Shown piece after piece: positions 15,715-56,660 of a DNA stretch of 64,000 nt (positions are counted from its first letter, which is position 1; every line of letters starts with the position of its first letter). This stretch comes from Pontederia crassipes. Lineage: Eukaryota; Streptophyta; Magnoliopsida; Commelinales; Pontederiaceae. The translations under genes and the position numbers were made by a program. The stretch is taken from contig JAUKPH010000023.1 in NCBI GenBank assembly GCA_030549335.1, positions 2,232,001 through 2,296,000 on the forward strand, read 5' to 3'. The notes beneath the pieces were generated by a model. The model was not told where the DNA came from. It did no database searches and worked only from the letters and a program-made list of their open reading frames with translations.

Positions 15715-18398
15715 GGTGTTCACAGCTTTTGCCCAAAAGTACTTAGGAAGGGTACTTTCATTTAGAATGTTTCTTGTCATTTCTTGTATAGTCCTTTTTT
15801 TTTCAACAACTCCATTTTGTTGAGGTGTTCTAGATGTGGAAATATTATGTGAAATCTCATTTTCTTCACAAAATAAATCAAACTTAGTATTTTTGAATTC
15901 TTTACCATGATCACTTCTAATTTTTGGGATTTTTTTATCAAATTCATTTTGTACTTTTTTTGCAAATTTCATAACTGTATGAAAAACTTCATCTTTGTGA
16001 GTAAGAAATAAAGTCCAAAACGCAAGTAGTCATCTACAAGTACAAAAACATATCTTTTTCCACCTAAGCTTGTAACATCAATTGGACCAAATAAGTCTAA
16101 ATGCAATAGTTCTAGGATTCTACTAGTTCTAATAAGATCTTTTGATTTAAAGGAATTTTTTGTTTGTTTTCCTTTTAAACAAGAATCACACACAATATTT
16201 TTCTCAATTTTTATTATAGGTAATTCTCTCACTAGTTTATTTTTTGAAAGCTTATTTAATCATTTAAAATTCACATGACCAAGGTTGAATCATCATGCAA
16301 TGCACGTAGACACTTTTCATTTTCTTAGTCCTCAAAGTCAATTTTATATATGTTATTGTGTCTAAAGTCAATGTGCAGCAAATTTTCATTTTCACATAGT
16401 ATTAGACATTTTTCTTTTTCAAATTTTACTAGATAGTTTTTATCACAAAGCTGACTAATACTAATTAGGTTATGCTTCAAATTATATGCTAGTCATACAT
16501 TTTCAAGAAGAATTTTATCATTTTTAGCAATGTTACCTATACCGATAACCTTTCCTTTTGCATTGTCTCCAAAGGTGACAGTTCCTCCATTCTTCTTTTC
16601 TAAGGTGATAAAATTTGATGCATCCCATGTCATATGTCTTGAGCAATCACTGTCCAAATATCATTTGCTTTCCTTCTTCTTTCTTGATGCTTCCTAAAAA
16701 AATAGACACAAAATTTATTTTTTTGGTATCCAAACTTATTTAGGTCCATCTTGGTTACCATTGATTCTTTTAGGAACCCAAATCTTCTTCATTCCAATAT
16801 TTTTTGTAGTGTTGCATTCAAAAGAATAATGACCATGTTGCATCACAATGAAAACAAGTCAAATTTGAATTGTGCATATTTGCAGCCCTCACAAATAGAA
16901 TTCTTGAATCATACCTTTTTTTCAAAAGAATTATAACCAAGACATTTCTTGTTGGATACCACCCTAGAGACACTAAACATAGCATTTAACATTTTCCTGC
17001 CATTTGTGAATTTTTGAACATTTTCTTCTAATTCTTTTGCTTTTGTGTTCAATATTCCTATCTCATTTCTTTGTGAACTAATGCATATATTCAAGTTGTC
17101 ATTCTTCATTTTTAGTTCATCAATTTGAAGTTATAAACTCATATTCTCATCGTTCAATGATATGCACTTTGTACATATGTCATATTGCTTATGTTTTTCA
17201 CTTTTAACATTTTCAAAGGCTGTTTACAACTTATCATGCTTCTTTTTGCATGTGCCATATTTTTTAATTTTTTTTTGAATTCATCATACATATCAAATGT
17301 ACTCAATTCATCACTTGATGAGTTAAAATATACCTCTTCATTTGTCATGAGATAGAAATAAGCTTCATCTTCATCACTTGGCGAGAGTTGTCTTCTTCCT
17401 ATTCACTCTCATCCCAAGTCACTTGAGGAGCCTTCTCCTTCTTCATTGAAGATTCGACCTCTTTGTCCATTCTTACAATGTTTGGACACTTGTTCTTGTA
17501 GTGTCCAATCTTTTTATATTCAAAACAAGTGATTTGACTTTTACTTGTTGGCTTTCTTCTGAATGATTCACCTTTTTTTCTTCTGAATGATTCACCTTTC
17601 TTTCTTTCCTTGTCAAATTTTAAATATTTATCTAGTTTTCTTGCATAGAGTGCTATTTTTTTTATCGACATCTTCTTCATCTTCACTTATTTCTTCTTCA
17701 TCATTTTTTACCTTTAAGGATAAGGCCTTCTTCTTTGTGACATTTGTCTCCTCGTCTTCTTTTATTCTTATCTCATAAGTTAATAGTGATCCTATGAGAT
17801 CGTCAAAGTCTAGCTTGTTTAGATCCTTTTCTTCTATCTCCGATCACTTTGTGTGCCATTTTGAAGAGAGTGACCTAAGAAATTTTTTCACTTTCTGAGC
17901 ATTAATCCTTGGCTCGCCCAGAGAGGCTAACCATTCATAACATCATTAAAGCACATAATCATACTATTTATAGCTTCATTTTCAAGCATTCTGAATGAGT
18001 CATATTGATGATTTAGGAGATTTAACTTAGATTCCTTAACTTTCCCAGTTCCTTCATGAGTAATAATGAGTTTTCTCCAAATTTCATTTGCATTTAGGCA
18101 AGTAGAGATACAATTAAATTCAATAATATCTAAAGCGCAATAAAAGAATATTTTTTTATCTTCCAATCCAATTTAACTAAGAGACTTTCTCCTTCAATAT
18201 ATTCTACTGATGATTTTCCTTGCAAGTTAAAACCACTTTCGATCACATTCTAAATAACAATATCTGTGGAACATACATATGCATGCATTCCAATCTTTCA
18301 ATATGCAAAGTTTGATGCATTAAAAAGTAGAGGATGGTTGGTTTATTGACCTTCACTGATAATAAAGTTATTTGACGCCATGACTCTTATAGATAATT

Positions 18399-18816
18399 GG
18401 ATTTTTTTTCCTCTGACCTCCCCTGAACTATGAACTTTTTTTGTGTCTACCCACGGCTTTCGTATTTTTCACATACCTCCCCTAAACTATGCCACTTTTT
18501 TCACTTATGTCCATCCATCAACATCTGTTAACTTTCCCATTAATTTTCATTATTTTAATTTATGAAATGACCCAATTTCTCTCGTGCATCTAGGTCACTA
18601 AAAAAATGGGGAGCTCACTTATCTAAACTATGCGAGGGCAATTTGGTCATTTCATAAATTAAAATAATAAAATTTGATGGGAAAATTAACAAAAGTTGAT
18701 GGATGGACCTAAGTGGAAAAAGTGGCATGGGTTAGGAGAGATCTACAGAAAATACGAAAGTCGTGGGTAGACGTGGAAAAACTTCATAGTTCAGCGGAGG
18801 TCGAAGGAGAAAACCC
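18399..18816. mobile_element. 418-bp Mutator-like fold-back MITE (family member A)
   Basis: The arms are long inverted repeats: the left begins GGATTTTTTTTCCTCTGACC and the right, reversed, GGGTTTTCTCCTTCGACC, with a shared CTCCCCTGAACTATG block. It is flanked by TAGATAATT (18390-18398) and AAGATAATT (18817-18825). The related sequence at 14815-14830 (AAAGATAATTAAATC) has no insert and shows the original site, so the target duplication is 9 bp, as in the Mutator superfamily. There is no coding capacity. It shares TIR blocks with the elements at 22845, 48259 and 54899. Confidence 0.85.
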
Positions 18817-18866
18817 AAGATAATTAAATCTTAATCACTAGAGTAAGCCTAGGATCTGATACCAAT

Positions 18867-20063
18867 TGTAGGATCGTAGGGCACCAAGAGGGCAGTGAAT
18901 TGGTGTATAACCTTTTTAATCTTGAAATTTTAAAATTTTCTTTTAGAAGTTTTTCGTGAGAATGCTAAATGTAATGCAGTTAATGCAAAAAGATAACGGA
19001 AATAAGATAGAGAGCAAACACAAGATTTGTTGATGAGGCTTTACCCAACTCTTGGCCTACGTCTCCACTCTAACTTCTCGACCTCCATATTGTCAGAGAT
19101 CCACTATCGTCCTCCTTTTTAAAAGGGAGAAGTAAACCTTTTTACACATGCACCACCTTCTTCTCCGCTCAAAAGGAAATGCGATCCTCTTTTCACACAA
19201 GAGCTTTCAGGAATATAACTTTGCAGATCTTTCAATCTCTCATTTTCACAAATGATCACCAGAAGGTTTATAGTAGAGAGTAATGAGAAGAAGGGATCTA
19301 GGGCTTTTTTCAGGAGAAAAATGATGAAAATGATCTTTCTTGATTGCTTGATTGCTTGTGCTCGATTCAACATCTTCTCTTATATTTTGGACTTCTTTTA
19401 TAGCATACTTGACGAGATCCTCTATATTTAGAAGGTAAATATTTGATATGAAATATGGCTGTTACTACAATAGATCGTGTTGCGTCTGTCAGTCGGTTGA
19501 CATGGGCGGTCGACCGGCTAGAGGTTTTCCACAACATTTCATCTCACTCTTAGTTTCGGTTGCTTGACCGGTTGATCAATCCTATGTCTGGTTCCTTATT
19601 TCCATTTTTTAACTCTCTGTTCAATTCGAATCCATAGTCGATCGACCGGTCCTATGATCGACATCTTTTGATCGATCATACTTTCGGTCGACCGATCTTG
19701 CGATCAGTCTTATAACTTTAGTAGTTTTTTTCTTCTGTTCTCTTTGGTTGTTTGTCTGGTCAACCAATTCCATGACCGGTCTCATAACTTTAATGGTTTT
19801 AAGCTTCTATTTTCTTCGGTTGTTTTTCTGGTCTTGTAATCGATTTCATAACTTCAATGATTTTTAAGCTTCTGTCTTCTTTGGTCGTTCGTTCGGCCAA
19901 CCGGTCCTTCGACCGGTCTTTGACTTCTCCTTCGTTTCTTCATTGGCTCTTCTCCTATTAACCTTATTCCTATATATGCATCACTTGATAAACTCATTAG
20001 TAACATTTACTGGTCAATTGTGTTTGTTATCATCAAAACACAAGAATAATATGTGATTCAACA
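18867..20063 (-). repeat. LTR of copia copy 2
   Basis: A 1197-bp LTR, plus-reading start TGTAGGATCGTAGGGCACC and end GATTCAACA, with TG...CA boundaries. It contains many GGTCGACCG and GACCGGT palindromes between about 19480 and 19920. It is homologous to the plus-strand LTR at 7502-8679. Confidence 0.85.
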
Positions 20064-22222
20064 GATAGGGATATCAATTCTAAGTAAAGGTGATTTGCTT
20101 GTGCAAACCCATCTTTGACCTAAGTTGAAAATCAAATGATGTTGCACAACATCTACATTATCCACTCAATTGCAAGTTTTATCGATCGATCGGCCGAGTA
20201 AATCGATCGACCAACCTTCAAATCGGTCGACCGCTCCGAATAACTAGTCGACCGACAGAATATTAAGGATTATTTGAAATGGTTATAAATCGTTTGACCA
20301 ACTTATTCTTTTGGTCGCTCGCCTGTACGAAAAATTGGCCATTTAAAAGCTAGGTCATATTCGACCAAATCCCATTCATTTGCTCAGCCGACCTTAATGT
20401 ACCATCGCGACCGATCCTCTTGCCTCCCCGATCGACGTCCTATGACCTCATCTTTGATTCTCATCACCGACGAGAGTATCTGCGATGACTTTGCACCCAG
20501 CCAGTCACTCAGCCGATCGATCTCTGGTACAAATAACTCTGACAGATCCTTATCTCCAAGTTTGACCACATGTTCTTTCCTTTAATTGGTTTCTACTTTA
20601 ACAGATCGTGTGCTCCTCCTTCTCGTCTCGAAATGGCTCCACCTTGTACGAATAATGCACATATCGGGTCATCATCCCCTCACGGTCATGCTCGTGGACG
20701 TGCTCGTAGTCGGGCAGGCCGAACCCCAGCTAGTCATCGTTCACCCTCCTACGAATCCTCCTCCGAGTCCCCATCACCTACTGACTATGATAGAAATATT
20801 TTTTGCACTTCCGCATTTTGCCTTATTTATGACATCTTTTACAACACACGCGAAGTCAAACGCGTGATTACTATTGATTGGGACTCTCTTGTCTTGCCTT
20901 ATGTCCAAGAAATGTTCTCTAATATTGGTTGGTATCCTCTAGTGTCCTTACGTGAGTGCATCTATCCACATCTGGTCCATCTATTTTATGCAAACCTGGC
21001 CATTGAGAAAGATAATCTACTGACCTATGTTCTTGGACGTCGCATCACTGCCGACCCGACTACTCTCATGTACATCTTTGAGTTTCTTTTAATGCCAACT
21101 CGTTCGGGAATTGAAGCCTACGCCATTCACTCTTGGCCTCCTAGTTCTTCGACCATTCAAGTTGTTGTGGAGCTAGTGTTTGACGGTCGAGCTTCCCAAT
21201 ACAAGACCAATGATGTCCACAAGTATCTTCCTCCTGAACTTAAGGTCGCACATCACATCTTGACTCATATCGTAACCCCTCGCTTTGGTCATTTCAACGA
21301 AGTTCAACATTTTGATCTCTTATTTCTTTATTGCCTCTATATTCATGATAGTTCTTGTCTCAGCTTTCCACATTATTTTCTCTACATCTTGAAAGCATGA
21401 AAAAGAAAAATCTTAATAGGGCTTCTGAAAACCATCCTTTGTACTTTCGCTCCTGGATTACTAAGATCCTTGTTCACTTTGGAGTCATCATTCCTCCTGC
21501 TGAGGAATTCATTCTCGCCCGGACTTGGGACACTATTACCTCTTATACCTCGTGCAGGAAACGTATTACATGTGGTCAGGGTGGTGTCAGAGCACCTGAG
21601 GATATTCCTTCTAACGCCATGGACACGGATCATACTCAAGGGGAGGAACCCAACTCATAGCCTCCTCCTACTTCCAGTGCACCCTCCTCCTCTAGCGCGC
21701 TCGACTTGATTGCTTTTACTTGTGAGGTGCGCGCCCTGTAGAGGGATGTTCGGCGACATGGTCATGACATGCATTATCTTACTGGGGTGACACTTGACTA
21801 CTATGGAGCTCAGGAGTTCATTTCCACGAGAGTTCGCGAGGAAGACAGTCCCGATGAGGATTATACCTTCTTTTATGTACCTCTCTTTGATGATGTCAAA
21901 AAAGGGGCAGAAGTATGTAGCATGTATGTTAGGATGATGTTGTTATGGAACTTGTGCTATGGAACCCGCAACTTTTGATGAAACACTATCCATGCTATGT
22001 TTTGGTTATGTTTGATATGCTATGTAATCTGATGAGAACAAAGCACCTTCTTGGTCATGTTATTTTGGTAAATTGTATGTTCTTGAACATGTATCATTTG
22101 ATTATTGTAATATATGTGAAAACAATATGCATGTTTTTAGGGGGAGCATGAAACATCTTTATTAAATATTTATATTAACTCTCCATCGAACAATATGTTT
22201 GTGATCATCAAAAAGGAAAAAT
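20064..22222 (+). mobile_element. 3' internal region of the outer copia element, with extra ORF (fossil)
   Basis: This plus-strand stretch lies just upstream of a plus-strand LTR (22223). An open frame from ATG 20633 to 21400 encodes an Arg/Ser/Pro-rich start, then a segment typical of the 'putative plant transposon protein' domain (for example LFYANLAIEKDNLL and YVLGRRITADPTT). Related downstream coding continues to about 21980. Such an additional ORF between pol and the 3' LTR is known from SIRE/Maximus-type elements. It is damaged beyond the first open stretch. Its best fit is the 3' half of the element whose 5' half is at 7502-10213. Confidence 0.65.
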
Positions 22223-22590
22223 TGTTGAATTACGTACAATTCTCATGTTTTGATAATAACGAAAGGTGAAAACAAGTGGAAATAAGGAACCGGTCATAGG
22301 ATCGGCCGACCGATCAAGCAATCGAAATAAATAGTGAACTCAAACGTTGTGGAAAACTTCTAATCGATCGACCACCCCTATCAACCGGTCGACCAACTCT
22401 GCGTGATCTGATGTTTATTTTTCATACCAAATCTTTTGATTACTTTCCAAATATAAAAGATCTCATCAAGCATGCTATAAAAGAAGTTCAGATCGTATGA
22501 GAAGGTACTCAACAAAGCACAAGCAATCAAGGAAGATCATTCTCATCATTTTTCTCCTAAAAAAAGCCCTAGATCCCTTTCTTCTCCCTG
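22223..22590 (+). repeat. shortened 3' LTR of the outer copia element
   Basis: It begins TGTTGAATTACGTACAATTC, as the LTR at 7502 does, continues with the AAAGGTGAAAACAAGTGG and GAAAACTTCTAATCG blocks, and stops at CTTTCTTCTCCCTG. It is about 0.37 kb against 1.18 kb for the complete LTR, so parts are missing. The sequence after it (TGTTGGAGCAAAG) is unrelated. Confidence 0.75.
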
Positions 22591-22844: not shown

Positions 22845-23757
22845 GGGTTATTTCCTATGACCATCCCTAAACTATCGCGAATTACCATATCTAACCCCAA
22901 ACTACGAACTTCATTTTTTGGGTACCTAAACTATCACGATTTTTCCAGTTTGATCCTTTCGTCCAATTCCGTCGACTTCTCTGTTATTTTTTTATTTTTT
23001 TGCATTTGTGAAAGTCCATTATACCCCTCCTTTCAATTGAATTCTATTTTTACATAAAATAATATATAATAATAAATATAAAAATAATTTTAAAAAAACC
23101 ACACAGTGGGGCTCGCCGCCCCCCTTACGACGCAGGTTGACGAAGGGGGGTCGCTGCCCCCTACCGTCGTCGTCGACGACAATGATGACGACGCACACAG
23201 GCGACCCCCCCTTCTCTTTCCCGGCGCAGGGGTCGCCGCCCTCCCCCCCCCCCTCCGGTGCCGGGAAAGAGAAAAGGAGGGGGGATTGCCGCCCCCCCTC
23301 TGGCATCGGGAACGAGAAAAGGAGGGGGGTCGCCGCCCCTTGCGTCATCATCGTCGACGACGACGCGGGGGTGGGGAGGGGGGGCGACCCTCGCACCCCT
23401 CTTTCCCGACGCTGGGAAAGAAAAGGGGGGTCCCCACCTGCGTGCGTCGTCGTCGTCGACGGCGGTGGCAGGAGGGGCGGCGACTCCCTCCCCCCCCCCC
23501 CCCCCCCCCCCTTCCTCTTTCCTGGCACGCAAGGGGGCGCGGGGGCGAACCCCCTCCCCTCCCCTCTCTTTCCCGGCGCTGAGAAAGAGAAAAGGGGGGG
23601 GGGGGGGCCATCCCCCCCCCCCCCCCCTTTGTCGACCTGCATTGTTGATGACGCAGGTCGACGAAGAGGGGGGGCGGCGAGCCCTCGTGTGTTTTTTTTT
23701 AAATTATTTTTATATTTATTATTATATATTATTTTATGTAAAATAGAATTCAATTGC
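22845..23757. mobile_element. GC-cored long-TIR element (family member B), right arm cut
   Basis: The left arm begins GGGTTATTTCCTATGACCAT and carries CCCTAAACTATCGCG, CCCCAAACTACGAAC and TTTGTGAAAGTCCATTATAC blocks, shared with 48259-48440. The inner arms are inverted repeats: CAATTGAATTCTATTTTTAC (about 23034) is matched in reverse at 23737-23757, next to AATAATATATAATAATAAAT. The core (23100-23690) is extremely GC-rich. The right arm stops at about 23757 where hAT-like sequence begins, so this copy is truncated. The core is low-complexity and encodes nothing I recognise. Confidence 0.7.
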
Positions 23758-24864: not shown

Positions 24865-25249
24865 TTTTATAGAATAATATTAAAATAGAAATTATCAAAG
24901 GCATAAATAAAGGAAATAAAAAGAAAAATGTTAAAGAAATAATAATAATTTAAGATAAAATTTATTAATATAGCATCTATCATCAATAAATAATAGATAT
25001 TAAATTTAGTAATAATCCATTTATATTTATATGTTAATCATTATTAAAAAATTTAATAAATAAAAAATATGTTATATTAATTTTTAATATTATTAATAAG
25101 TTTTAATACAATATTTATATACTATATCATGTAATTTATATTATATATTTATAATTATTATAAATAATATTATTTTAATAAAATCTGGTTCAATCGGACC
25201 GATCCAACTGTAATTCGATAAAAAGTTCGGTCTGATTTTAAAAACATTG
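24865..25249. mobile_element. truncated relative of the 599-bp MITE
   Basis: From about 24868 the sequence parallels 47340-47743 (AATTTAAGATAAAATTTATTAA, then ATCTATCAT.AATAAATAATAGATATTAAAT) and ends with TTTTAAAAACATTG at 25249, the terminal repeat of that MITE. The left third, including the other terminus, is missing. Confidence 0.7.
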
Positions 25250-26249: not shown

Positions 26250-29200
26250 TCACCGAGTACTTTCCTCATCCTTGCTACTCATTTGTGGAGTATACTGACT
26301 AGTGGATGACGGGGAATAACCTGGCGCAGTAGGAGAGTAGCCTGCACTTGGGCTGCATGGAAGAATGGAATCAATTCAGTAGCTGCCGTGCAACTGTCAT
26401 AAAGTAATCAACTAATCAAAAAAGACTTTGGAAAGAAAACTCACCTGTACTCTGGAGAGGTTGGGCTGTAGTTGGGTATTTGACTGGAGTTATAAGGACT
26501 GTAACAAAATATTGAGTATCAATCGGGAGTAGAATATATGCAAATGACACAAAAAAAAGCATAAGAAAAGTGAGACACTCAATGCAGAACGACAACCAAT
26601 AGGTTTTTTTTCTTGCTATGAAACAGGACCAAAGCCACAGTAGAAAGCAGTCCCTCCCAGATGGGCTGGGAAAGAGTTCTGCGAGAGCAATCAAAAGCCG
26701 CTTGATCCTAAAGTATATAAAAAGTCATAGCTACTTCCAACTTGATTTCTCGAACATGATAATCAAAGTGCAAAGTGGCATTGTGGGAAAAAAACTGCTA
26801 GTAGCAAGTACCACAGAAGGACAAAATGCTAGCATTAGGTGAAATAGCAATATGGCAAACTATGCAAGCCACAGCAAGGATGCCCAGAGATGACTACTAT
26901 ACATGGGCTTCGAATAAGGTTTTGCAAGATATACATGTTAAAATTTATCTAACAAGGTCATTGATCATTACTGAAAAGAAAAAAAAAACATGATTTTCAC
27001 TTAATTATGACTAATGAATTAATGCACAAAAAACAGCCTGAACATTATTATATTAATATTGAACTTCATCTCAAGCTGAGAAATATTATGGTTAAATCTA
27101 CAAAACTACAAAGAGTTTATCGGAAAAGAAACTAAAAGTTCCAATGGAAAAAAAGGAGAATACAAGTATTTTGGTTACCTGGTGGGACTGTATGTAGGGC
27201 TTGAAGGAGAATGGGATGGAGATGTCGGAGAAAACGATGCTGAAGTTGGACTGGAGTAAGGACAAAAAAAGTTCATGAGTTAAATTAACAATTTAATGCT
27301 GCACAATAAACCAGAATTCAACCAATGTAACTATCAGGGAAGTAAAGTGTTTGATAGAAGAATAGATTGATTGCTACCTGTAATTCGGAGATGATTGACC
27401 ATAAGGACTTGATGGTGACAGCCTTGCGCTGCTTGGGGAATATGCAAGTGAAGGACTGTACTTTGGAGCAGGGTTGTAACTTGGAGATGTTGGGCTGTAA
27501 GTTGGAGACGTTGGGCTATAACTGGGAGATGTTGGACTGTAGCCAGGAGAAGTGGGGCTATAGGCAGGTGAGGTAGGGCTGTATGACGGAGAGGTTGGGC
27601 TATAAGAAGGTGATGTGGGACTATAGGAGGGTGAAGTAGGGCTATATGATGGAGATGTTGGACTGTACGCAGGAGATGTTGGACTGTACGCAGGAGAAGT
27701 TGGACTGTAGGCAGGAGATGTTGGGCTATAACTTGGTGAAGTAGGACTGTAACTTGGGGAAGTTGGGCTGTAACTAGGGGAAGTTGGACTATAACTTGGG
27801 GAGGTTGGGCTGTAACTGGGTGAAGTTGGGCTGTAGCTGGGTGAAGTTGGGCTATATGATGGACTTGTAGGTGAATAGGCAGGGCTTGTGGGGCTATACC
27901 CAGGGGAGCTGGGACTGTATGTTGGAGAAGTTGGACTATACCCAGGAGATGTAGGGCTATATCCTGGAGATGTAGGGCTATACCCTGGAGAAGTTGGACT
28001 ATAACCTGGAGATGATGGACTGTAACCAGGAGATGATGGACTGTAGCCAGGTGAAGAACTGGGAGAGAAAGCCATTCCACCAACATAAGGTGAAAACTGG
28101 GCATCCGAAATTGGAGAGGATCGAACATTTGGGCTCAGTAAATAGCTTGGTGACATCATTCCCTCATGATAGGGTGTACCAGAGATTGGAGAGCGAGCTG
28201 GTGTCATTCCAAAATCCAAACCACCTTCCATATAACTAGGAAGCTGAAGCTCAATGGCCTGTTGCAACATCTGATCATTTAAATATAAAGCACAGCTTCC
28301 TGTTCCAATTGGAGCAAGCTGACCAAGCATAATATTCTCAGTAACTCCTCTAAGATGGTCTGATTCAGCATACACAGCGGCATCAAGGAGTATGTCAACA
28401 GTTTCTTCAAATGAACATCTCATCAGTGGTCCAGTATCATTTCGGTTAATACCATGCCTTGTAATAGCCATTAAATGACCTCTGTAGGTCATTGTATCAC
28501 ATAAGATTGCCAAATGTCGGTAGTTCACATAAGATCCATCAAAAGATATGACCACGCGAAGCTCATCAAGAAGAGCACGTCTTACAGCCTCAATCCCAAG
28601 AACTTCTATAACTTCAATTAAGTGGTTACTTGTTGTCCTAGTGGCATCAACATCCTCATGGCACATAACGGCTAGAAGATTAACACCCTCTGTATCAAGC
28701 ATCCACTCCACATCAGGTTTGAACCCTTCATTCTCATCAAACCTGTTTATTTTTCCTGACTTGATGAAAACCTTGTTGATATCAGGAATGCCACGAAGAG
28801 CCATTTCGGTCAACATATTGCTCTCTATCTTCTTTAGGAAGACATCATCTTCTGCTGATTCATCTTGCAATTCTCCTTTGGGGGCTTCATCGTTCATGAT
28901 GCGAATCCGAAGGATAAGCTTGTCAGCATTGTCATCATTAAAAATGCATGTCAAATCGTCATCAAACTCATGATTTATTTTCTCAGCAATATCTGCCATG
29001 CTCAACTTCTTATCAACCATCATCTCACGATTTAATTCAATGCGAAGGAGCCATGGTGACATTTTTTCTGGCGCAATGTCTTCATCTGGCATTTCATAGT
29101 ACGACTTAACAAACTCAACATCTTCCTCAATGATGGTACCCATGGGATCAGGATCATACCATATCTCGGTTGCATGTGTTACACTCCGCAAAGTAGTGTA

Positions 29201-32200
29201 CTCCAAAGCACATTGGACATTTTTAGCCAACTCTTTCTTCTTGTTGACTTCAGGTTTCAAGTACACAGACAACGAAGGAGTTTTGATTTTCTTGGCAACA
29301 TTAATAATTTCCCTCAACCTGGGAACACCAAGTGTGACATTCTTGGCACTCACACCAGCATAATGGAAAGTATTTAGAGTCATCTGAGTTGCTGGCTCCC
29401 CAATTGATTGTGCAGCTACACAGCCAATCATTTCACCTGGGGCAACCAACGACTGCAGAAAACGAGACTCTATCTCACCAATCACCCATTCAAATGCTTC
29501 ACGGGTCAGTCTATATTCTTTCAGCACCCGTCTGCTAGCAAATGTACTGCGAAGCAAGATATTAAACAACAAAGTTGCATTTTTCTGAGCCTCCACACTC
29601 AAAAAATCTTCACCAGGAACAACTTTAAGCCTTTCTTGCAGTTTATCAATAGCTTCTACAATCTCCATAGGGTGCATATCAGATGGTCGTCTGAAATCAA
29701 TCTTGAACGTCTTTTGAGCATTCCAAATGAGTCGTTTCAGATTGACAGGCATAGGCAGTGTGGTATCACCAGTTGTAGCAATCTCTGTTGCGAGCTGGTA
29801 ACGATCTGCTTCCAGTTTCTGAACTTCAGCATCAAATACATTTCTGAACTCCCTAATAGTTTTCAGGTCCTCAACATGCTCCGGTTGCATGTAGCTAGGA
29901 TTCCAGTTGTCATCATCAAGCTCATACCTGAAAACATTGTCAAACTCTCCCTTTTTCATTTTCAAGGAGTCGAACTTCTGTGACTCGATCCACACTGCAT
30001 CCATGCCATCTTCTCCATAGAGAAATTGGATAACATCTCCAAGAGAGTTTCTAACAGTGTTATCATATTTAACCATAATGTCCTCCATAGCCTTAACAAG
30101 CCGACGCTGGATATATCCAGTCTCAGAAGTTTTGACCGCAGTGTCGATGAGACCTTCCCTACCACCCATAGCATGAAAGAAAAATTCCTGAGGCGTCAGT
30201 CCACGAAGATAAGAGTTCTCCACAAAACCACGACTTTCAGGTCCATAATCATCTTTTGTGAAGTGAGGTAACGTTCGATCATTGAAACCAAAAGGAATAC
30301 GTTTGCCTTCAACGTTCTGCTGCCCGACACAAGCAGTCATCTGAGATATATTGATGAAACTACCCTTTGATCCTGCAGTAACCATTGCCTTCAAATTGTT
30401 ACTTTCAGACAAGCTCTTTTGTGCACTGCTTCCAGCATCATCACGAGCCTTATTTAAAACCTGAGAAGCAAAGCATCAATTAGTGAAAATGCAAACAAGA
30501 TTCAAAAGGACAACTATGCCAAAGGTCAATGAATGGCACCTGATTGACTCTATTCTCAAATGACTCCATCATTGTACGCCCAGGTTCAGCTTCTAAGCTC
30601 TTTTCCTGTGCCAACTTGATAAGTTCTTTGACATCGTTCTTGGCTTTTGATATTGTTTCATTGATTTTTTCCATGGTTGCAGCATCAGCAATTGTATCCC
30701 CAATTCCAATGCTAAAAGCATTCTGCAATAGCCAGTAGTTCACGAGCCACTGAGTATGCCCCAAAAATTTTCGGGCAGCATCTGGGCCAACCTCTTCCCT
30801 GTAGAATAAAAGTGTATAGTAGAAGATTAGCTTCCGTGGGATGAAAGATTTGAAGAAAAGTATGAATTTAAATGTGGAAAGCAAATTATCACCAGATGAC
30901 ATGAATCAAACTTCCCGTTGATGTTCCCAAAGCTTTTTTGCAAAGAGTGCCTGAAAGAAGTTCTCCTTTTTCTATTCGAACTAAGGTATCTCCAGGTGTA
31001 ATAAAACCTGTTTCCGACTCAGCGTGCCAGGCTGAAAATCTTATAAGATTTATTTGCTTTGGAATGATAAGGTTGAAAACTTGTTTTCCAGTCCATAAAG
31101 GACGAGGTTTCCATATGGTTGGAGCAGGTATCTTGCCATCAAAATCTTCCCACCACATTAAGATGTTCATGAAGACATCCTGCCACAGTTAAGTTAAATG
31201 TCAATTCTTATCTGAATTGAAAAGGTTTTCCACTAAGATCATCCATGGCTAATATCACAATAATGGAGACAAACCAAGAAAAAAAATATGTAAGTTCATT
31301 GCCAAAACCTTTTCGATAAATGTATCTCGTTTAGTGATCTTGCGACACCCAAGGAGCGTATCTTGGACAATACCCATGACGGGGCGATTTGACTGCGGTG
31401 AGACTATGCATTTAGGAACCATCATGAGTTCTAAGACTTCAGCTCTGGTTTCAAAAGACTGGGGAACATGCATATTCATCTCATCTCCATCAAAATCAGC
31501 ATTGTAAGGGGATGTCACAGACAAATTCAGGCGGAAGGTTGAGTAAGGCATGATTTTGATTCTATGTCCCATGATTGACATTTTATGAAGACTTGGCTGA
31601 CGGTTGAAAAGGACAAAGTCACCATCTTGCAAGTGGCGCTCAACCTGTCAAAATTATATGCAAGTTTATCACACGATATAATGTTAATACAGTTGCAATA
31701 TTAAATAACCAAAAATAGCAGATAAGTCGAAGATGATCAACCTTGTAGCCCAACTCCAAATGGTGGTCACTACTTTTCTTCAGGTAGCGAAGATCAAGCC
31801 TCTGACCATCTTCACGTATGATGTACTTTGCACCAGTCTTACCCGGAGGGGGATGAGGTCCATATTCCACAAGTTCTTTCAGTCTAACGAAAGTTTAACA
31901 TTTCAATATAATAAGGAGAAAATAATCATACTTAGAAATTTAGAACAGAGAAAAAAACAGCCAAGTGTATACCGCTCAATGTTATATGGAGTCACAGTTT
32001 CTGGATATGTCAAATTCAAAGCAATGCTCCATGGAACTCCCAGCTCGTCAATATTAATAGTTGGGTCAGGGGTTATGACAGTTCGTGCTGAAAAGTCTAC
32101 ACGCTTCCCCATCAAATTTCCTCGAATGCGACCTTCTTTAGCCTTCAACCTGCTGCAAATAGATTTAATTGGTCGACCTGACCGTTGTGTAGCCTGCAAT

Positions 32201-34470
32201 TTGGAGTAAAGATTGAGAAGGAAAATTTATGCAAACTTGGAAGAAGTCATGCTAGATGATAACATACCCTTGGCTGACCAGGAAGTTCATTATCAAAATA
32301 TGTTGCAATGTGAAACTGCAGCAACTGAGCAAACTCAGTGATAATGTGAGCTGGAGCTCCATTCCTCTCCTGCCGTCTTAAATTCTCATTATGTCTAATT
32401 ATCATTGCTAACTGATGAGTTAGATCATCCTGTTAAGACATGATAAACTTACACATTAGGTACCTAAGATAAGTGGCTACCATCGTTGCAAAGATCGTCT
32501 TGGAACTCACCTCGCTCCTGGAAGAGGTATCCATCATTACAGATGGTCTTACAGGAGGCGGAGGAATTGGAAGGACTTGCAATATCATCCAATCGGGCCG
32601 AGCATATTTAGGATTCAGACCTAACAACAAGCAATCTTCATCGCTTATCCTCTTCAGGACACTAAGAACCTGTTGAAAACAATAAAGCAACAAATTTTAT
32701 GAATATAAATCATATCAGCAGGAGAACAACAACCATAAAGCACCAAACTCCTACCCTCTCTGCAGAAAGGACTTGTTTTCTTTCAACAGGTTCAGGAAGC
32801 TGTTCTGGGTCATCGGATTTCTTCTTCGGAGCTTTATATTCTGCAACCATTTTCATACCATCTATTGTAATATTTGGTTGTTGAGCACCACAACCACCTC
32901 GGCTCTTTTTTATCGGCTCATCTGTATCTTGCTGACCCTGAACATCAATATCATCACCACCAGCACACTTCTTTTTGCTTTTGCATGCATCATATATTCT
33001 CTTCAACCTATTTTTTGGATTTCTTATTTTCAATGCTTGTTTGAATCGTCCATCATCCTGAAATAAATAATTATCCAAGATTACTAAATGCCTATTGAGT
33101 AATATGAATGAGTAAAAGTGCTGTTACTTCTACATATACATCCAACAAAAGTTGTATCTTTTTTGCTTGTACGAATCCGAAAATGCATAAAAGAAGGTAG
33201 TTATTGAATTTTACTATATTTAGAATAAAGATCCTCTTGACGCAAATAAAAAACAAAAGCTCTCAGAGAACACACTTGACATCTAATTTTCCATATTGTA
33301 CAGAAATGGTGCATCAAGTGTACCTCAGAATGATGCTATCTGAAATCAAATTCAGAACTACTTTCCTCTCAAAAAAATCAGAATTACTTTTAGCTTCCAT
33401 GTTAAAATTGTTCATTAAACTTTCTGATTGCTGCCAGAAGGTATAAAGCTTCATGTAACAGCATGCAACTCAAGGAAAAATCACATATCATTCCGAAAAT
33501 TCCCCCACCAAAGCAATGGGGAGTCTCATTGAATTAATAAAATTCAGTTTTCAAGATAAATGAAATGTGAAGCATATTATTAATGACTTCAAGTACTCTC
33601 CTTATTCGCATAAAGTCATGTATTCCAGTAAATCAAAATATAACTGTTTGTGTAAGAAGATAATAGCCAATTGGGAGTTACAACAACAACAACAAAGCCT
33701 TATCCCACTAGGTGGGGTCGGCTACAAAACACTAAATTTCCTGGTCAATTTCAACCCATTATCCTGATCCCTCCCGAACTAAGCAGCAACAATCGAGAAA
33801 GGCGTGATTATGTTAATGCACTTTCCTACGATAAGTCAATAAGATATTTTCGAGTCCTTCGTAGTATTTGTAACTGGTCATATAATACATTGAGAAGCAA
33901 TGAGAAACGAATAGTATTCCCCCTGCTAGAAATATGGTTCATTGAAAAAAAAAAAGAAAAGGCATGTTTTTCTGAATAAGTGCTGGGATCCACTCTGAGA
34001 GCAGTACCTCATCAGCTAGGATTTTAGAACAGTTGAAGCACACGCATCGCATGATCGCAAGCACGGTCTTCATGAAGCCGATATGAAACATGGGCTTGGC
34101 GAGTTCGAGGTGCCCAAAGTGCCCTGGGCACTCAGCCATGTTGGCCATGCATGTCTCACACTTGAGCTTCCGGTCGATAGTTCCCAGCCTCGGATCGCTG
34201 AGCCCGCCGGGCTTGGGCTTCCCCCGCTCCATGGTCTCGCCGTGCTCGATCTGCACCACGGACATTTGCCTCTGCGACGCAAATAGAGACCCCCGCAAGC
34301 CGCGAGTTAGCATCGTAACTAAAGAGGAGTAACCACATAAAAAACTTAAAGAAGAAGCCCGATCGGGAGGAGAAGGGGGTTTTTACAATCTCGTCGGGGC
34401 TGAGGATGCCGAACTGGACGGTCCGCACTTTGGCGACCTCCGCCGGTGAGAACGGGAACCGCGTGTCCAT
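26250..34470 (-). CDS. NRPB1: DNA-directed RNA polymerase II largest subunit (RPB1)
   Basis: This is the catalytic subunit that makes mRNA precursors in the nucleus. Fourteen coding exons on the minus strand: 34387-34470, 34008-34271, 32755-33057, 32511-32669, 32268-32429, 31973-32193, 31742-31883, 31309-31644, 30893-31179, 30540-30798, 27378-30460, 27179-27250, 26445-26498, 26250-26352. All junctions are GT-AG, frames join cleanly, and the sum is 5529 nt or 1842 residues, close to the roughly 1840 of Arabidopsis. Visible: the zinc-binding clamp ([17 protein letters not shown], about residue 65), the metal-A motif [12 protein letters not shown] (about 493-504), the bridge helix (about 832-865, RLVKAMEDI), the trigger loop (about 1092-1117, [11 protein letters not shown]) and the CTD from about 1545. 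The CTD has roughly 27 near-consensus YSPTSPS heptads in exon 11 and degenerate ones in the last three exons, ending in a charged tail (SSKDEESTR). The start ATG at 34470 gives the conserved [12 protein letters not shown]. The gene looks intact. Confidence 0.97.
33680..33723 (-). mobile_element. retroposon tail in intron 2 of NRPB1
   Basis: On the minus strand, GTAGCCGACCCCACCTAGTG continues with GGATAAGGCTTTG and a (TTG)n tail. It matches the insert at 3031-3070 almost base for base. No target duplication is evident here, so the copy is older or differently bounded. It lies within the 950-bp second intron, well away from the splice sites. Confidence 0.7.
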
Positions 34471-37970: not shown

Positions 37971-38274
37971 CAAATGTAAAAAAAATGCATGTAACGATTA
38001 TCCTCCAAATTTTTTATATATTAAACTTTTAGATCACATTAATCGATCTTGATCATAAAGTTCCATCATTACTTTGATTTTAACCATATTTATTAATTCC
38101 CTCGAGATGGATTATTAATAGGATGTTATATATTGGTTATTAATCAAACTTATAATTTAAGTCTATAGATTAATGGCTTTGAATATATGATGATACACTT
38201 CTCTCTTTTTCTTGAATCAAACTCTTGATCTTGATTATATGCTTCCACATTGATATGCTTTATCTTACTAGTCC

Positions 38275-39183
38275 ATATTTTAAATCATGTCGTATGAGTG
38301 GTATGATTCTAAATTGTTATGACCTTAGTATTATTATTTTCATGTTACAATAATAAAGGTCATACGCATTGTGATAATGAAAGGTGGTTGATATTATGTT
38401 CTATACAATTGATTTAGGTCTTAAAATTTAAATAACATCATACGTTTAGTGCTACATGATTCCGCCATATGCGAACATCATGATTTTAATCAACATAGTT
38501 GTGTCCATGGTGATTGTTGCTGCTACAATTGTGACCATTATGATCAAAGACGATAAATACCACACAATCATCCCATGGAATTATGATGATGGTGATTGCG
38601 CCCTACATCATCGCGATGAAAAAATCTCAAACCAACTAAGAATAATGTAGCGCAGCCTGAGTTCCGGGCACGACCCTTTTCATTGACATTAATAAACCAG
38701 CTCATGTCACAATCAACATGGCACATGTCATATTTTAAATCATGTCGTATGAATGGTATGATTCTAAATTGTTATGACTTTAGTATTATTATTTTCATGT
38801 TACAATAATAAAGGTCATACGCATTGCGATAATGAAAGTTGGTTGATATTATGTTCTATACAATTGATTTAGGTCTTGAAATTTAAATAACATCACACAT
38901 TCAATGCTACATGATTGCGCCATATGTGAACATCATGATTTTAATCAACATAGTTGTGCCCATGGTGATTGTTGCTACTATAGTTGTGACCATTATGATC
39001 AACGGCGATAAATACCACACACAATCATCCCATGTCATTATGATGATGGCGATTGCTCCCTACATCATCGCGATGAAGAAATCTCAAACCAGCCAAAAAT
39101 AATGTAGCACAGCTTGAGTTCCGGGCACGACCCTTTTCATTGACATTAATAAACTAGCTCATATCACAATCGACATGGCACAT
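38275..39183. repeat. tandem duplication, 455-bp period
   Basis: Two units (38275-38729 and 38730-39183) both start CATATTTTAAATCATGTCGT and end with ACATGGCACATGTC. They differ by scattered substitutions and a few small indels, roughly 90 percent or more identical by eye. Each unit holds a short open frame (38456-38650 and 38911-39102) encoding a hydrophobic segment with the shared core NIMILINIVV. The frames have different tails, so coding is not supported. Confidence 0.85.
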
Positions 39184-40472
39184 GTCTATGTTGACGTTGT
39201 GTCATCTTTTATACAGCTCATATTTTGAACTTTAGCCTATTTGTCAATATTAATTTCCTTCTTGATGTTTCTATTGAATATAAGGTTAAATTATGTATTG
39301 TGCTTCCTCTTTACAACAATGCATTTCTTAATATGCTTTTGTTGACTAGTCAATGTACTAGGCAAAGTCAAAGTGGAAAGAATCCTTTGTAATGACTCAT
39401 GAATGCATTTAAACAAGTGTCAAAAGAAGATTCATTAGATGTATTTTTTGGTAGTTATATAAAAAATGTCATTGATCATAATCAAGTATGTGACACAAAA
39501 TGACATAAATCATTAAAGGGTTAATGTTCCTGGATATTTATCACCATAGACCCTTGAGCCCTTATTGACCCTCAAACATTGGATTCAATTCGGAACTTCA
39601 ATTTTTATATGAAGTGGAAAACAAAATTTTGACTCTAAACGAATATGAAAATAATACATATTTGCATAAGAAATTTAATTAAAATACATAAAAATATTAA
39701 TGCCAAAATTAAAACCATAATTGAAACAATTGGATGCAAATCAATACAACTCTATAAACATAATTCATGAAATGATAACATCTTTATTGTATCAATGACA
39801 TTAAAACTTAAATTAAAGCATTCGTACATGTGCAAATAATCAAATCATGAGCAACACTGCATAACATATTATTAATGTATATGTTCTTGCATACCTATAG
39901 GGTCAAAAGAACCTCTCTTAATGAGTATAAATCCAATATGTAATGTCCAAATAGAAAGAACATGACTTATTCCTCCATAATATATAATATTTATGTATAA
40001 CATCATTTTCATCATAAGATGGAGAAAACATAATTCATTCCCTATATGTGGTTAATGAAATAGGAAGGTCAAGTAATAATAATAATAATAAATACCAACA
40101 TAAATTCATACCATATAAGTGGTTAATAAAATAGGAAAGTCAAATATTATGTATAAATAGCAACATTATTAGCCATTTCATTTCTTTGTTTCTCTTTCAT
40201 CTTTTTTTTCTTTATTTTTTTCGTAGAAGTCATATCTCTTACCTTCTTTCTATAGTTTTGTTATCTTGAAGAGTTTTCTTATTGGAAAATGCAATGTATT
40301 ATATCATATTGTCGATGACTATACATACCAATGGTTCCCCTCATGCAGTGAGAATCCCACTAAAAAGTTTTGATTCATTGCACATCATGAAGAGTCATAT
40401 ACGACAGAAAGTGGTGGTCAATTGTGTATTATCTATTTATCTTCAATAATCAAAAAATATTTTTATTGTATT
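39184..40472. other. AT-rich intergenic DNA, nothing recognised
   Basis: No protein, RNA gene or terminal repeat seen up to the hAT target site. It includes a short (AAT)n run near 40076-40089. Confidence 0.45.
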
Positions 40473-42639: not shown

Positions 42640-44749
42640 TCAAACCAATCTTTTAATAATATACAAACCTCCATCGACTTAGAGTTCATTCTATTTCTTC
42701 TCTCGTCCAAAATTCTGGAACTTGCAGAAAAACATTCTAGACATCGGAACAGCTAAAAGATCTCGAGCTAAGCGGAGAGAATTGGATACGTACGATCATT
42801 TAATCTCTACCAAGTCAAGACATCGATTTCACTATCACATTCATTTGGACGTGATAAGTAATCTTGCAGTTCATTATACAAATGGGTAGCTGAATTGGAT
42901 GAACCTTCATCCGAGCCTCTTGATGTGCCCCCGTAATAGAGGACATGAATCTAGAAAATGATCTATTATTGAAAGGTTTGGGTGCTATTGGTGGACGTGA
43001 TGAAGATGCTTTCTCTTTACGTACACCAAATTTTGTTTCATAAATATTATGTAAGTTATTTATTATATTTTCGTAATCATGATCTGGATTAATAAAATCA
43101 TCAGTTTGCAATTATGGATGACTTATTATATATTGTTCGGGAAAATAATTCTTAATTTCTCTGGTGTACCATTTAGGACCGGACCCTTTAAATCTAGGAT
43201 CCATCATCATTGCTAAAATTCCTATGAAAGGCAAATTATTCTAATATTCTAAAAATTTTGATTCCATCAAACAAATTATTTCAGAAAAATCATTTGATAA
43301 TTCACGTTTTTCATTAAATGAACTTGTCATTTCATGAAGTTGATTAATTATTAAATGTGAAGTAGGAGAATAAATGGCAGATAACTCTAAAGTAGCATTA
43401 TAAAAAACTTGTAACAATTCCACAACTGCATTAGCAACATCCCATTCTGCATCATTAATTCGAGCTGCTGGACATTGCAACACAGTTAAAATATAATTAT
43501 CGAGTGTATGTCCAAATGGAATACATAATTTCCGGAAATTCCCTCTGCCCCTACCGTACCCAATAGCATGTTGCCACCAGAAGCAGAAACAAATTAATAA
43601 TATGACATGCACATCTTTGATGAAAAAGAATTCCATTTAAAGGAGGATTTAATCTTTGAATTAAAAATTGTGCAGCAGAATTATTAGCACTTAGCATTAT
43701 CAAGAGTAAGACATAAAATTTTCTCTTTAAGACCGTATTCGTTAATTACTTTTTCTATCACATTGACAATTTGCAAACCATTATGAGGATGCTCAATTTC
43801 TTTAAACGCAATAATTCTTTTTTGCACTACCCAATTTGTATGAATCCAATGAACTGTAACACATAATAAACCATCACCATTTAAAAAAGTCCATATGTCA
43901 CTAGTCTAACTATACATGAATTTAGAATTAAAAAATAATTAATTAGTTTATTTTTCTTCTTACGATATAATTTAATCGAATCTTCTTTAACAATTTTTCT
44001 ACTAACATTTCAAAAGGCACCTTGTACATAATTTTGTTGATAATATAAAAATTTTTCATCTTCAGCAAATGTGTAAAGCATTTCTGCATGTATAACATAT
44101 CTTGCTAAACCTTCACGCATATTTTCTTGATTATAAGCAAATAAAGAGCTCCCGGCAGTACCACGACCGGGTGCAACTAGTTGAATCTGTTGCGATAATT
44201 GACCCGCTAAAAATTGTTTCCTAGTAGTTATAGGATGTGATTCTAAATGACGTTTTAAACTACCTGTGCCCGAAGAAGAGGCGACAGCATAATTAGCCTT
44301 GCAAATTTTACAAATAGCTTTATCTTTTTTTGGATCATTTTCATGTATAATTTTTTTAAAATAATTCCAAACTTCACTAGTTAACTTTGATGTTCTTCTT
44401 TTTTTACCTATTATCTCACCTTGCACGGGAGCATCTGAGCTTGACGGACCTAGAGGTGTCGCTGTCGCAGTTGCACAATCTCCTTCAGAACCTGCAGAAC
44501 TTGAAGCAATATTAAGATTAGGAATGACAAGAAGATTAACATATGTAGTTGGAGTAATTGGGCATTAGTTGATAGCGCCACAGTTTTCATATAACCCGAC
44601 GAATTGCCACTTAGTTGCGCTGATAAAAAATTAGAATCACCACTACTATTAGTATTATATGGTGTACCATATGGATATGTAGGTAGTGGTCCATAAGGTG
44701 AATAAGCAGCAAAATCACCATATAGACGAAAGGGATCTCGCGGGTCCAT
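42640..44749 (-). pseudogene. hAT transposase (RICESLEEPER/BED zinc-finger type), decayed
   Basis: On the minus strand a Tyr/Pro-rich N-terminus (from 44749, MDPRDPFRLYGDFAAY) is followed by a BED zinc finger (about 44380-44240; CKICKANYA then GTGSLKRHLESH). Next come a segment typical of the hAT central domain (43636-43241, EWDVANAVVELLQVFY), a DUF4413-like region (43111-42920) and the C-terminal dimerisation region (about 42830-42640, VLTWWRLNDRTYPILS). Frames shift at about 44450 and again between 44010, 43640, 43240 and 43110, and stop codons interrupt the last domain, so no functional protein is made. Confidence 0.85.
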
Positions 44750-47144: not shown

Positions 47145-47743
47145 CAATGTTGTTAAAGCCAGACTGGACCGGCTAATTTAATCGGTTCAATCGCAAATCG
47201 ACCGATGATCCGGTCCGATTAGGTGTCTAAAAAGGTATTGAAATAGGAATTGAAATAAAAAAAGTAAGTACTAAAAAAGGAATATGTATATGATTAAATA
47301 GAAGTTGAAATAAAAAGATAAGTATTTAAAATTGAATCATATTAGAATGAAAACTTATCAAAGGACATAAAATAAAGGAAATAAAAAGGAAAGTGTTAAA
47401 TTAAAAAAAAAGAAATAAGAGTAATTTAAGATAAAATGTATTAATATAACATCTATCATTATTAAATAATAGATATTAAATTATTAATAGTCTATTTATA
47501 TTATCATTATAAAACATTTAATTAATACAAATTATGTTATATTATTTTTTAATATTTTTAATAAGTTATTAGTACAGTATTCATATATTATATCATATAA
47601 CTTATACTATATCTTTATAATTATTATAAATAATATTATTTTAATAAAATTCAGTTTAATTCGGTCGAACTCGATCGGACCAGTCCAATCGTGATCTGGT
47701 GATGAGTTCCGATTCGGTCGCCGGTTCGGTTCTAAAAACATTG
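47145..47743. mobile_element. 599-bp MITE with perfect 8-bp TSD
   Basis: The ends are CAATGTTGTTAAAGCCAGAC and, reversed, CAATGTTTTTAGAACCGAAC, an imperfect inverted repeat continuing into GGACCGG-type blocks. The flanking duplication GTTATATC is exact (47137-47144 and 47744-47751). An 8-bp duplication fits the hAT superfamily. The AT-rich interior has no coding capacity. A 5'-truncated relative lies at 24865-25249. Confidence 0.85.
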
Positions 47744-48258: not shown

Positions 48259-48550
48259 AAGTTATTTCCTCTAACCAACCCTAAACTATTACGATTTTTC
48301 ACATCTAACCCTAAACTACGAACTTTATTTTTTGGTTATCTAAACTTTCGCGATTTTTCCAATTTGATCATTTCGTCCAATTCCGTAGACTTCTCCATTA
48401 TTTTTTATTTATTGCATTTGTGAAAAGTCCATTATACCCCTGCTTTAAGTGTTAGTCCATTTATACATAAAATAATATATAATAATGAATATAAAAATAA
48501 TTTAAAAAAAGAAAAAACAAAGAGGAACAAATAATTAAAAAATAATTCGT

Positions 48551-48580
48551 GAGGGGTGGGGTGGGTGGGTGGGGGGCGGC
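48551..48580 (+). other. G-quadruplex-prone G-tract
   Basis: Runs of G4, G4, G3, G3 and G6 are separated by single T residues, a textbook intramolecular G4 pattern. It sits exactly at the inner edge of the left arm. Similar G/C-run clusters occur at 23590-23630 and 55275-55302 in the sister elements. Confidence 0.7.
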
Positions 48581-48763
48581 AACCCCCCCCCCCCCCTCTC
48601 TTTCCCTACCAACGCCGGCGCAGGGGAAAGGGGGGAGGGGGGGTCGGGGGTCGACGTCCCCCTCTCTTTCTACGTCGGCATCGACGGGGCCTCCGATCGC
48701 CTCCCCAGACAACTCCATCCAACTCCACTACCGGGCGATGCTTCCTCCGTTGCCTCGGCCGCC

Positions 48764-49047
48764 ATGAAGCGCTCGTTGAAGAAGGTGTTTGCGAGGGCTT
48801 GACTCTGCACAACACCATGAAGCTAGTGCTCATCCCCTACTACGACCTGCGGAGCTCGGCGTCGTTGGTGTTTTCCCGAGCCGACACGCTCGAGAGTGAG
48901 AGCTTCGACTTCCGATTGTGGGAGGTGTGCCGGGCGACGTGGACAGAACCCGGCCGGTTCGAGTCGGCCGAGATGCGGTCTGTGGACGGGACCACGACAT
49001 GCGTGGGCATCGACGGGGCCTCGCCATGAGCAACCCGATCACCGCCC
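48764..49047 (+). pseudogene. captured fragment of a patatin-like phospholipase gene
   Basis: Reading plus strand gives KRSLKKVF, then EGLTLHNTMKLVLIPYYDL, then SLVFSRADTLE, SFDFRLWEVCRAT, EMRSVDG and finally AMSNPITA. The order and spacing match the middle of plant patatin-like acyl hydrolases of the PLP3/6/7 type (LTLRDT..PVLIPCYDL..FSRADA.E...DF.L.EVC.AT...SVDG...AMSNPTAAA). The fragment covers roughly 90 of about 400 residues and lacks the nucleophile-elbow GXSXG part. The frame shifts once after KKVF (about 48788) and once near 49010, and no start or promoter is evident, so it is a dead capture. Known family motifs support the identity; no database search was run. Confidence 0.75.
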
Positions 49048-49374
49048 CCCTCCCTCCCCGATGAATGGGGGCACCCCCTCTGCGTCCATCGATTGACGCG
49101 GGGGGACACATGACGTCTTCTTTATTTTTTAATTATTTTTATATCTATTAGTATATATTATTTTATATAAAAGGGGATTAACACTTGAAGCAGGGATATA
49201 ATGAACTTTTCACAAATGTGAAAAATAAAAAATAACGGAGAAGTCGACGGAATTAGATGAAAAGATCAAATTAAAAAAATCGCGATAGTTTAGGTACCCA
49301 AAAAATGAAGTTCGTAGTTTGGGTTTAAATGTGAAAAATCACCATAGTTTAGGTGTGGTTAAAGGAAATAACCC

Positions 49375-54809: not shown

Positions 54810-56660
54810 ACTATTGTTTGATGTGTTTTAGGATTCATAAAAATTTGGCAAAAACACATCTATAGAGATTCAATATGGACAATCAATATTAAAATATTGG
54901 GTTATTTTCTTACACCTCATCTAAATTATCACGATTTACCACATCTAATAATCTACGAACTCACCATCTAAATTATTCCGCTATTTTTACTTTAGTCCAT
55001 CCGTCTAGTTCTATTAATTTTCTCGCTATTTACGATTTTTTAATTTATTAAATGACTAAACTACAGTTATCTCATTTCTTTTAATATTTAAAGGTTTAAA
55101 ATAATATATAAAAATATTTAAAAATTTATTAAAAAAGGAGGGTGCTGCCCCTCCACCCCCCAATTAGTGCCAGATGGAGGGCCCCCTCTACGTCTTCTGC
55201 AAGGGGGGCAGTGTCCCCCTCGATCTCGCCGACGTCGATGAGATCGCAAAGGGGAGGGGGGCTTTGCACACGGAGGGGTGGGGGTGGGGGGGGGGGGGGG
55301 GGTTGCCTATATTGTCTTAAACTTTTAAATATTAAAAGAAATGTTAGAAAGGGTAGTTTAGTCATTTAATAAATAAAAAATAAAATATAATGGGAAAGTT
55401 AATAGAACTAGATGGATGGACTAAAGTGAAAATTATGAAATAATTTAGGAGGCGTTATGGTGTGTTCATAAATTATGATTAGATACAAAAAATCGTGATA
55501 GTTTAGGGGAGGTTTAAGAAAATAATCGTAAAATCTTTCAGCCCGAATTGAAGCCCCCTCAACTCGCATTATAGGCCAAATTTAAGACTTCTATCCCCTC
55601 TTGGAGGCATTCAGATCATATTGAGCTTGCATCAAACAATACAGGAAGGTCATATTTAAGCTCTTCAGACTGTATTGAAAGTCTCCAGACCGTAGCGCAT
55701 TTCAAATTCAATATGGTGTGTGATCCAACTGAGAGTAACACCCAAGTCTTGATCATATTGGGGTGATTTCTTATTATTTTTTTAATATTATTTTAATGGA
55801 TGGTATAAATAGGGATTTTTGGGGACCAAAAAGGGGTGCCAAATCTTGTTTTGGAGGAGGATGATGATTGGGAACTTATTTTTTTCGCAATTTATTATAT
55901 TGATTGTAAGCTTTATTCTTATCTTCTTTCAATGCAAAAACTTATTCCATGATGTTTTTTATCGTTACCCATGGCTAAACTCCATTTTCTAGGGTTTAGA
56001 TAAAATCTTGGGTTGATTATTAGAAAATATTTTAATTTGATCTGATGTATTCTTTATCTTTCATTGCTTGAGGAAATGCTTGTATTAGGTTGACCACCTG
56101 ATTAAGCAAATTATGATTTTTTTATTACAAAAGTAGTTCATTAAGATGAGTTAAAATGAAAGACAAGAAATGCATTATTTCTTAAAAATAAGGATAATAA
56201 TTTTACTCATGGAATATTATTATATAATGCAATTAAAATAATTTAAATTATCATGAAAGTAAGCATTTATTATTTTAATTAGAATTGTATTTGTCTGAGA
56301 AAGAGATGCATGATTTTTAAAGATTGAGTAGAGCACTCATGATTATATTATTTTTAAAATCCTTATGATCAATATCCTAAGTGGATTTGAAGCCCGAGAA
56401 ACTCTTTTTTTATAACGACTCCGAACAATTCTTTTCCTTCTCTCTTAAAGATTAAGTTAACTCATTTCTTTTCTTTTGTTTCTTTAGTTTTTCTTTTAAT
56501 TTTTCATTCAACTCTTACGTAACTGTTAAGACAACATTAAAAATAATACAATTAACTCTTTTTTGTGGGACGATATTTTATATACTACGACATTAACTCC
56601 ATATACTTGCAAAGATTTATCAAGTTTTTTATCCCTTCTTCATGCGGAGGGATCAACCAA
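54810..56660 (+). repeat. Ty3-type LTR (Athila/Tat-like), split by a MITE, fossil
   Basis: After the start, which resembles 190-290, the sequence holds CATATT-rich degenerate units and GGTATAAATAGGG (a TATA box at about 55802). It then holds a leader-like stretch with CATGGCTAAACTCCATTTTC (about 55967) and ends with ATTTATCAAGTTTTTTATCC (about 56606-56625). That ending resembles the LTR/primer-site junction of Athila/Tat elements. The internal region is missing; copia DNA follows. The MITE at 54899-55528 sits near its left end. The left boundary is uncertain. Confidence 0.5.
54899..55528. mobile_element. 630-bp GC-cored fold-back MITE (family member D)
   Basis: The arms are inverted: left GGGTTATTTTCTTACACCTC with CTAAATTATCACGATTTA; right, reversed, CGATTATTTTCTTAAACCTC with CTAAACTATCACGATTTT. 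The target duplication is TAAAATATT (54890-54898) and TAAAATCTT (55529-55537), 9 bp with one mismatch. The paralogous uninterrupted site at 268-283 (TATTTAAATCTTTCAG) shows the join. The core (55135-55310) is GC-rich with a long G-run (about 55283-55302). Confidence 0.85.

Follow-up and report, generated by a model that had tools for sequence, protein, structure and literature searches.

The element at positions 48259-49374 (E2, 1116 bp) of the 64,000-nucleotide window of Pontederia crassipes DNA analysed here is very probably a foldback DNA transposon that is non-autonomous, most likely Mutator-like, and the carrier of a captured, now decayed piece of a host gene for a patatin-like acyl hydrolase, in effect a Pack-MULE. 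A Pack-MULE holds a host gene fragment without a transposase, and such a fragment is found in the core of E2 when the core is read with frame switches (Patatin, E=4.8e-7). E2 behaves like a Pack-MULE and is a candidate member of that class in the strict sense. E2 is bounded by inverted arms whose homologues occur in related elements, its patatin homology lies only between the arms, and its reading frames are broken. The decay of the arms, the missing target-site duplication and the broken frames suggest that E2 is old and inactive. The preliminary description of this locus had reported inverted arms, shared with other elements, around a patatin-like core, and this observation is confirmed. Its interpretation as a foldback element with a patatin fragment and nothing patatin-like outside is kept, the Mutator-like part of it is weakened, and its claims of novelty are given up.

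The limits of E2 were set by its arms and by the alignment of its ends with those of its relatives; no strand is assigned to E2 or to its relatives. The left arm (48259-48518, plus strand) and the inverted right arm (49115-49374, minus strand) contain an inverted repeat of 258 nt (48261-48518 against 49115-49372) that is 85% complementary with a spacing of 596 nt, and blastn aligns the two arms at 85.5% identity over 255 nt (E=3e-81), which bears out the long inverted arms first described. The arms are symmetrical in length and share the same end point in the alignment. The left terminus begins with AAG, unlike the right terminus of E2 and the left termini of E1 and E3, which begin with GGG, and this is a point against the favoured reading of E2. 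Each arm of E2 has three subterminal motifs like CCTAAACTA, which are located about 30 nt apart in the left arm (48280, 48310, and a diverged third copy at 48340) and at 49345, 49315, and 49286 in the right arm. When one mismatch is allowed, CCTAAACTA occurs 24 times in the window against 16.5 expected and 2 of 100 shuffles reach 24, so that its window-wide enrichment is only modest. The GC content per 60 nt is 0.12-0.33 in the arms and near flank and 0.62-0.73 in the core from 48541 to 49080 (a single block is at 0.53); the window as a whole has a GC content of 0.35. An AT-rich dispersed repeat, with copies at 24869-25184 and 47331-47650 that are 83% identical, lies near E1 and E2, respectively, and belongs to neither.

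The preliminary description had stated that the arms are common to three other elements in the window, and blastn and an arm profile agree with this. E1 (22845-23756) is the closest relative and has an intact left arm and a right arm shortened to less than 100 nt; blastn gives arm identities of 85.7% (over 252 nt) for the left arm of E2 and 83.5% for its right arm. E3 (54899-55528, 630 bp) has a GC-rich core of about 165 nt, and E4 (approximately 18399-18816, about 418 bp) is a MITE with two arms and almost no core. In the aligned columns of a joint alignment, the arms of E3 are 60-63% identical and the arms of E4 are 56-57% identical to the arms of E2. The arm profile was built from only three arms (the left arm of E1 and both arms of E2) and recovers all four arms of E3 (E=3e-13 and 9e-7) and E4 (E=2e-9 and 2e-5). 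Applied to 20 first-order Markov randomizations of the window, the same profile gave no match at E<=10 in any of them. Judged by these identities, only E1 is close to E2, and E3 and E4 are distant. A BLAST overhang had suggested a likeness between the 30-nt left flanks of E1 and E2, but it was attributed to chance: 85 of 3000 random pairs scored as high, as did 52 of 3000 in a comparison anchored at the end. E4 is located where direct and inverted repeat pairs (72-87% identity) cluster densely (7502-22590) around a copia-type gag fragment (11349-12068), and the cluster is likely the remains of nested retroelements.

Mutator-like elements are characterized by arms of 100-500 bp and target-site duplications of 9-11 bp (PMC3310237). 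The 258-nt arms of E2 lie within this range, and 9-bp duplications are found at two of the three testable elements, E3 and E4, and not at E2 (E1 is untestable). The flanks of E3, TAAAATATT and TAAAATCTT, agree at 8/9 positions with no offset from the aligned ends, and those of E4, TAGATAATT and AAGATAATT, also agree at 8/9. Random 9-mer pairs from the window agree at 8/9 or better with a frequency of 0.0003 for a fixed pair and 0.015 over 81 offsets. At E2 no duplication is found, the best agreement over 81 offsets being 6/9. The sequence AAGTTAT occurs at both ends of E2 and was rejected as a duplication because its left copy lies inside the arm. Since the duplications are at E3 and E4 and not at E2, the wider group is well assigned as Mutator-like and E2 indirectly so; E2 is most likely Mutator-like on the strength of its relatives. 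The Mutator-like assignment of the preliminary description is weakened, since the 9-bp duplications belong to two distant relatives and E2 itself lacks one.

It is unlikely that the arms derive from a different foldback superfamily and that E2 is a Pack-TYPE element of another class with a captured gene fragment. Such an origin would be consistent with the lack of a duplication at E2, with a zf-BED frame within the window, and with the flanks of E4, where an exact 8-bp duplication, AGATAATT, also fits and has the length given for hAT duplications in PMC8903248. In contrast, the duplication at E3 fits a length of 9 bp and abuts the aligned termini on both sides, and arms of about 250 nt are inside the Mutator-like range of 100-500 bp (PMC3310237). 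A Pfam scan of 20 of the 74 long open frames of the window found no MULE domain or family transposase in these 20 frames; the matches were zf-BED, Transposase_32 (a "putative plant transposon protein" in Pfam), copia-type gag, Rpb1, and S4. The Transposase_32 match, the patatin fragment, and the overall content of the window point to a plant host. The BED zinc finger (PF02892) is at 44013-44564 on the minus strand, and an open frame with no Pfam match is nearby at 43244-43636, also on the minus strand; the two are perhaps a decayed hAT-type transposase gene. The window also contains a tandem duplication (38274-39186) with a unit of about 456 nt that is 93% identical, and a gene for the largest subunit of RNA polymerase II, RPB1, with a heptad-repeat tail (27374-34382, minus strand). 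The frame at 27374-30412 of this gene matches RPB1 chains near full length, and 33942-34382 matches RNA_pol_Rpb1_1.

The preliminary description had read the GC-rich core of E2, in order, as the middle of a patatin-like hydrolase, and this reading holds for the C-terminal half of the domain with two frame switches. The fragment (48728-49049, plus strand) runs through three frames. The quoted motifs are present: one frame (48799-49023) contains LTLHNT to DGAS, and another (49023-49046) contains AMSNP. The single frames have no Patatin match in Pfam: this is the case for the 75-residue piece, and the longest open frame of the core, of 158 residues, has no Pfam match at all. A first reading that joined 48728-48796, 48799-49023, and 49023-49046 with the bases unaltered matched no family but Patatin (E=5e-5), with a score of 24 bits that is under the curated cutoff of 27.7. 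In a second reading, the second switch was moved six bases earlier (48728-48796, 48799-49017, and 49017-49049), and residues 11-105 of this reading matched positions 93-188 of the 191 positions of Patatin (PF01734) with E=4.8e-7 and 30.6 bits, which is above the cutoff; a weak match to one other family, SMN_Tudor, was at 0.098. No Pfam family was matched by any of the nine controls, which comprised residue shuffles (three), translations of dinucleotide shuffles along the same path (four), the reversal, and the reverse complement, and which follow the path of the first reading and not the second. In a search of the PDB, patatin-17 ranked first (E=0.6, residues 130-181, and E=0.31, residues 121-181), but unrelated chains came close behind at 0.7 to 1.5, and the match is not significant alone.

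It is very improbable that this similarity is a chance product of a GC-rich, low-complexity core. The unmatched single frames and the PDB values of 0.31 to 0.6 would be expected from chance, and the positions of the two switches were picked by eye with the patatin family in mind. However, the second reading exceeds the curated cutoff and aligns end to end over profile positions 93-188, the controls gave 0/9, and the initial joining, with Patatin as its sole match, had already given E=5e-5. In addition, the third codon position of 48799-49023 has a GC content of 0.87; the other two positions have 0.52 and 0.51, and the third position of the RPB1 exon has 0.36. This is a coding signature, and it is in the same frame as the patatin similarity. 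Because patatin had been named in advance and heads the matches in both libraries, Pfam and PDB, the core is taken to carry real patatin-family homology. The C-terminal half of the Patatin domain is retained and the part before profile position 93, which we take to be the side of the nucleophile serine, is missing, so the piece presumably cannot be an active enzyme. A copy that is incomplete in this way and has broken frames would have no enzyme function. E2 is of use mainly for annotation, since its open frame of 158 codons (48553-49026) could be miscalled as a gene by gene finders.

The patatin-like sequence stays within the arms, as had been proposed, and no continuation was detected outside. 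No Patatin match was found in six forward frames covering 600 nt on each side (there was one unrelated match with E=0.078), and the longest stop-free stretches in the flanks are 67 residues on the left and 101 residues on the right. These observations bear on a composite formed in place, in which two separate arm-bearing insertions flank a patatin pseudogene that has never moved and in which the outer flanks are expected to be unrelated. The outer flanks are indeed unrelated, the two ends of E2 lack a matching duplication, and the identity between the two arms of E2 (85.5%) does not exceed that between the left arm and E1 (85.7%). Additionally, a capture model based on the fusion of neighbours has been described for Pack-TYPE elements (PMC8903248). 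Nevertheless, a composite would require a single partnerless arm on each side, neither patatin-like sequence nor a long open frame is found past the arms, and the arms are equal in length with the same end point in the alignment, which makes this arrangement improbable.

The core of E2 is best described from left to right. The first part (48541-48727, no strand assigned) is GC-rich and non-coding and partly resembles the core of E1, the patatin fragment follows, and the patatin similarity stops at a C-rich tail (49050-49114, no strand assigned). The best match of the first 187 nt to the E1 core is 75% over 73 nt, a score that 0 of 60 shuffles reach; the score against the E3 core is reached by 2 of 60 shuffles and is less sure. 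The patatin part has no likeness to the cores of E1 and E3, since 48/60 and 37/60 shuffles score as high. As the first 187 nt are E1-like and the patatin part is like neither E1 nor E3, the patatin piece appears to adjoin an older GC-rich core of the family. GC-rich cores are present in three of the four elements, E1, E2, and E3 (GC 0.67-0.71, 165-586 nt), and partly share hairpin-like motifs. The E1 core (23105-23690) is 586 nt long with a GC content of 0.71 and has no match to patatin or any other Pfam family in the six open frames scanned. Several readings of this core have long open frames; it also has C and G homopolymer tracts and a 45-nt unit in two copies (23247-23339).

A 21-nt sequence in the first part of the E2 core (48673-48693, plus strand) is identical at 20 of 21 positions to 49002-49022 within the patatin fragment, and 0 of 200 shuffles of the core contain a repeat as long. 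Both copies span the frame-break point, so the re-copying probably took place within the element, after the break. Most likely a transposase made elsewhere bound the arms and moved E2. A stretch of a patatin gene would have been copied into the GC-rich core, probably during gap repair or by the fusion of neighbouring insertions, and the 21-nt piece would later have been re-copied inside the core. E2 is one data point for the internal re-copying of captured sequence. It is also conceivable, although doubtful, that the family habitually builds GC-rich cores, that the patatin piece and the 21-nt re-copy are a frozen step of repeated template switching that leads from a core-less MITE to a gene carrier, and that the absence of a duplication reflects capture before the next move.

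MITE family membership is commonly set at 80% identity. No core-less copy in the window has closely similar arms: the only core-less MITE, E4, is 56-57% identical in its arms, E3 is 60-63% identical, and E1, which is close, contains a GC-rich core of its own of 0.6 kb. The window therefore shows no single family in both states, and the proposal that the arms define a MITE family here does not hold. The size of E2 had been considered unusually small, and 1116 bp falls within the commonest size class of tomato Pack-MULEs, 1000-1200 bp (PMC3310237). The link between MITEs and gene carriers through shared ends had been considered new, and it has already been published for PIF and Mariner elements (PMC8903248). 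MITEs and Pack-TYPE elements have a common structure and probably common transposases; in maize, the elements of Zm-Pack-PIF cluster 18 share their ends, and 52 of them are non-Pack (about 402 bp) and 72 are Pack (about 535 bp), and in Os-Pack-Mariner cluster 217 Pack elements are paired with MITE-sized non-Pack relatives (PMC8903248). Given the published size class and the published MITE/Pack pairs, the claim of a new find is not upheld, and E2 is an ordinary instance of known gene-fragment capture. Among the publications searched, none joins Pack-MULEs with patatin, and a search with short plant-patatin peptide motifs gave, among the titles listed, nothing related to patatin.

Compared with patatin-like phospholipases (PF01734), the fragment in E2 aligns to nearly the whole second half of the profile but lacks the first half, has two frame breaks, and is not a gene. 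Like Zm-Pack-PIF cluster 18 and Os-Pack-Mariner cluster 217, the elements of the window are short elements that share ends with and without a captured gene piece, but those clusters have 15-nt terminal repeats and other duplications whereas the arms of E2 are about 258 nt, and the MITE of the window, E4, is only a distant relative of E2, unlike the published pairs (PMC8903248). If many copies of the arms with and without gene pieces exist in the host, they could reveal the sequence of events by which a MITE becomes a gene carrier. Rice and maize Pack-MULEs prefer GC-rich fragments (PMC3310237). E2 differs from Pack-MULEs in that it lacks a target-site duplication, its arms are only 85% alike, and its membership comes through its relatives only; it resembles them in its long inverted arms, its GC-rich host gene fragment, the absence of a transposase, and a length in the range of 1.0-1.2 kb. 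With a size and composition that match published Pack-MULEs, E2 is a clean single-window case of fragment capture by a long-armed DNA transposon.
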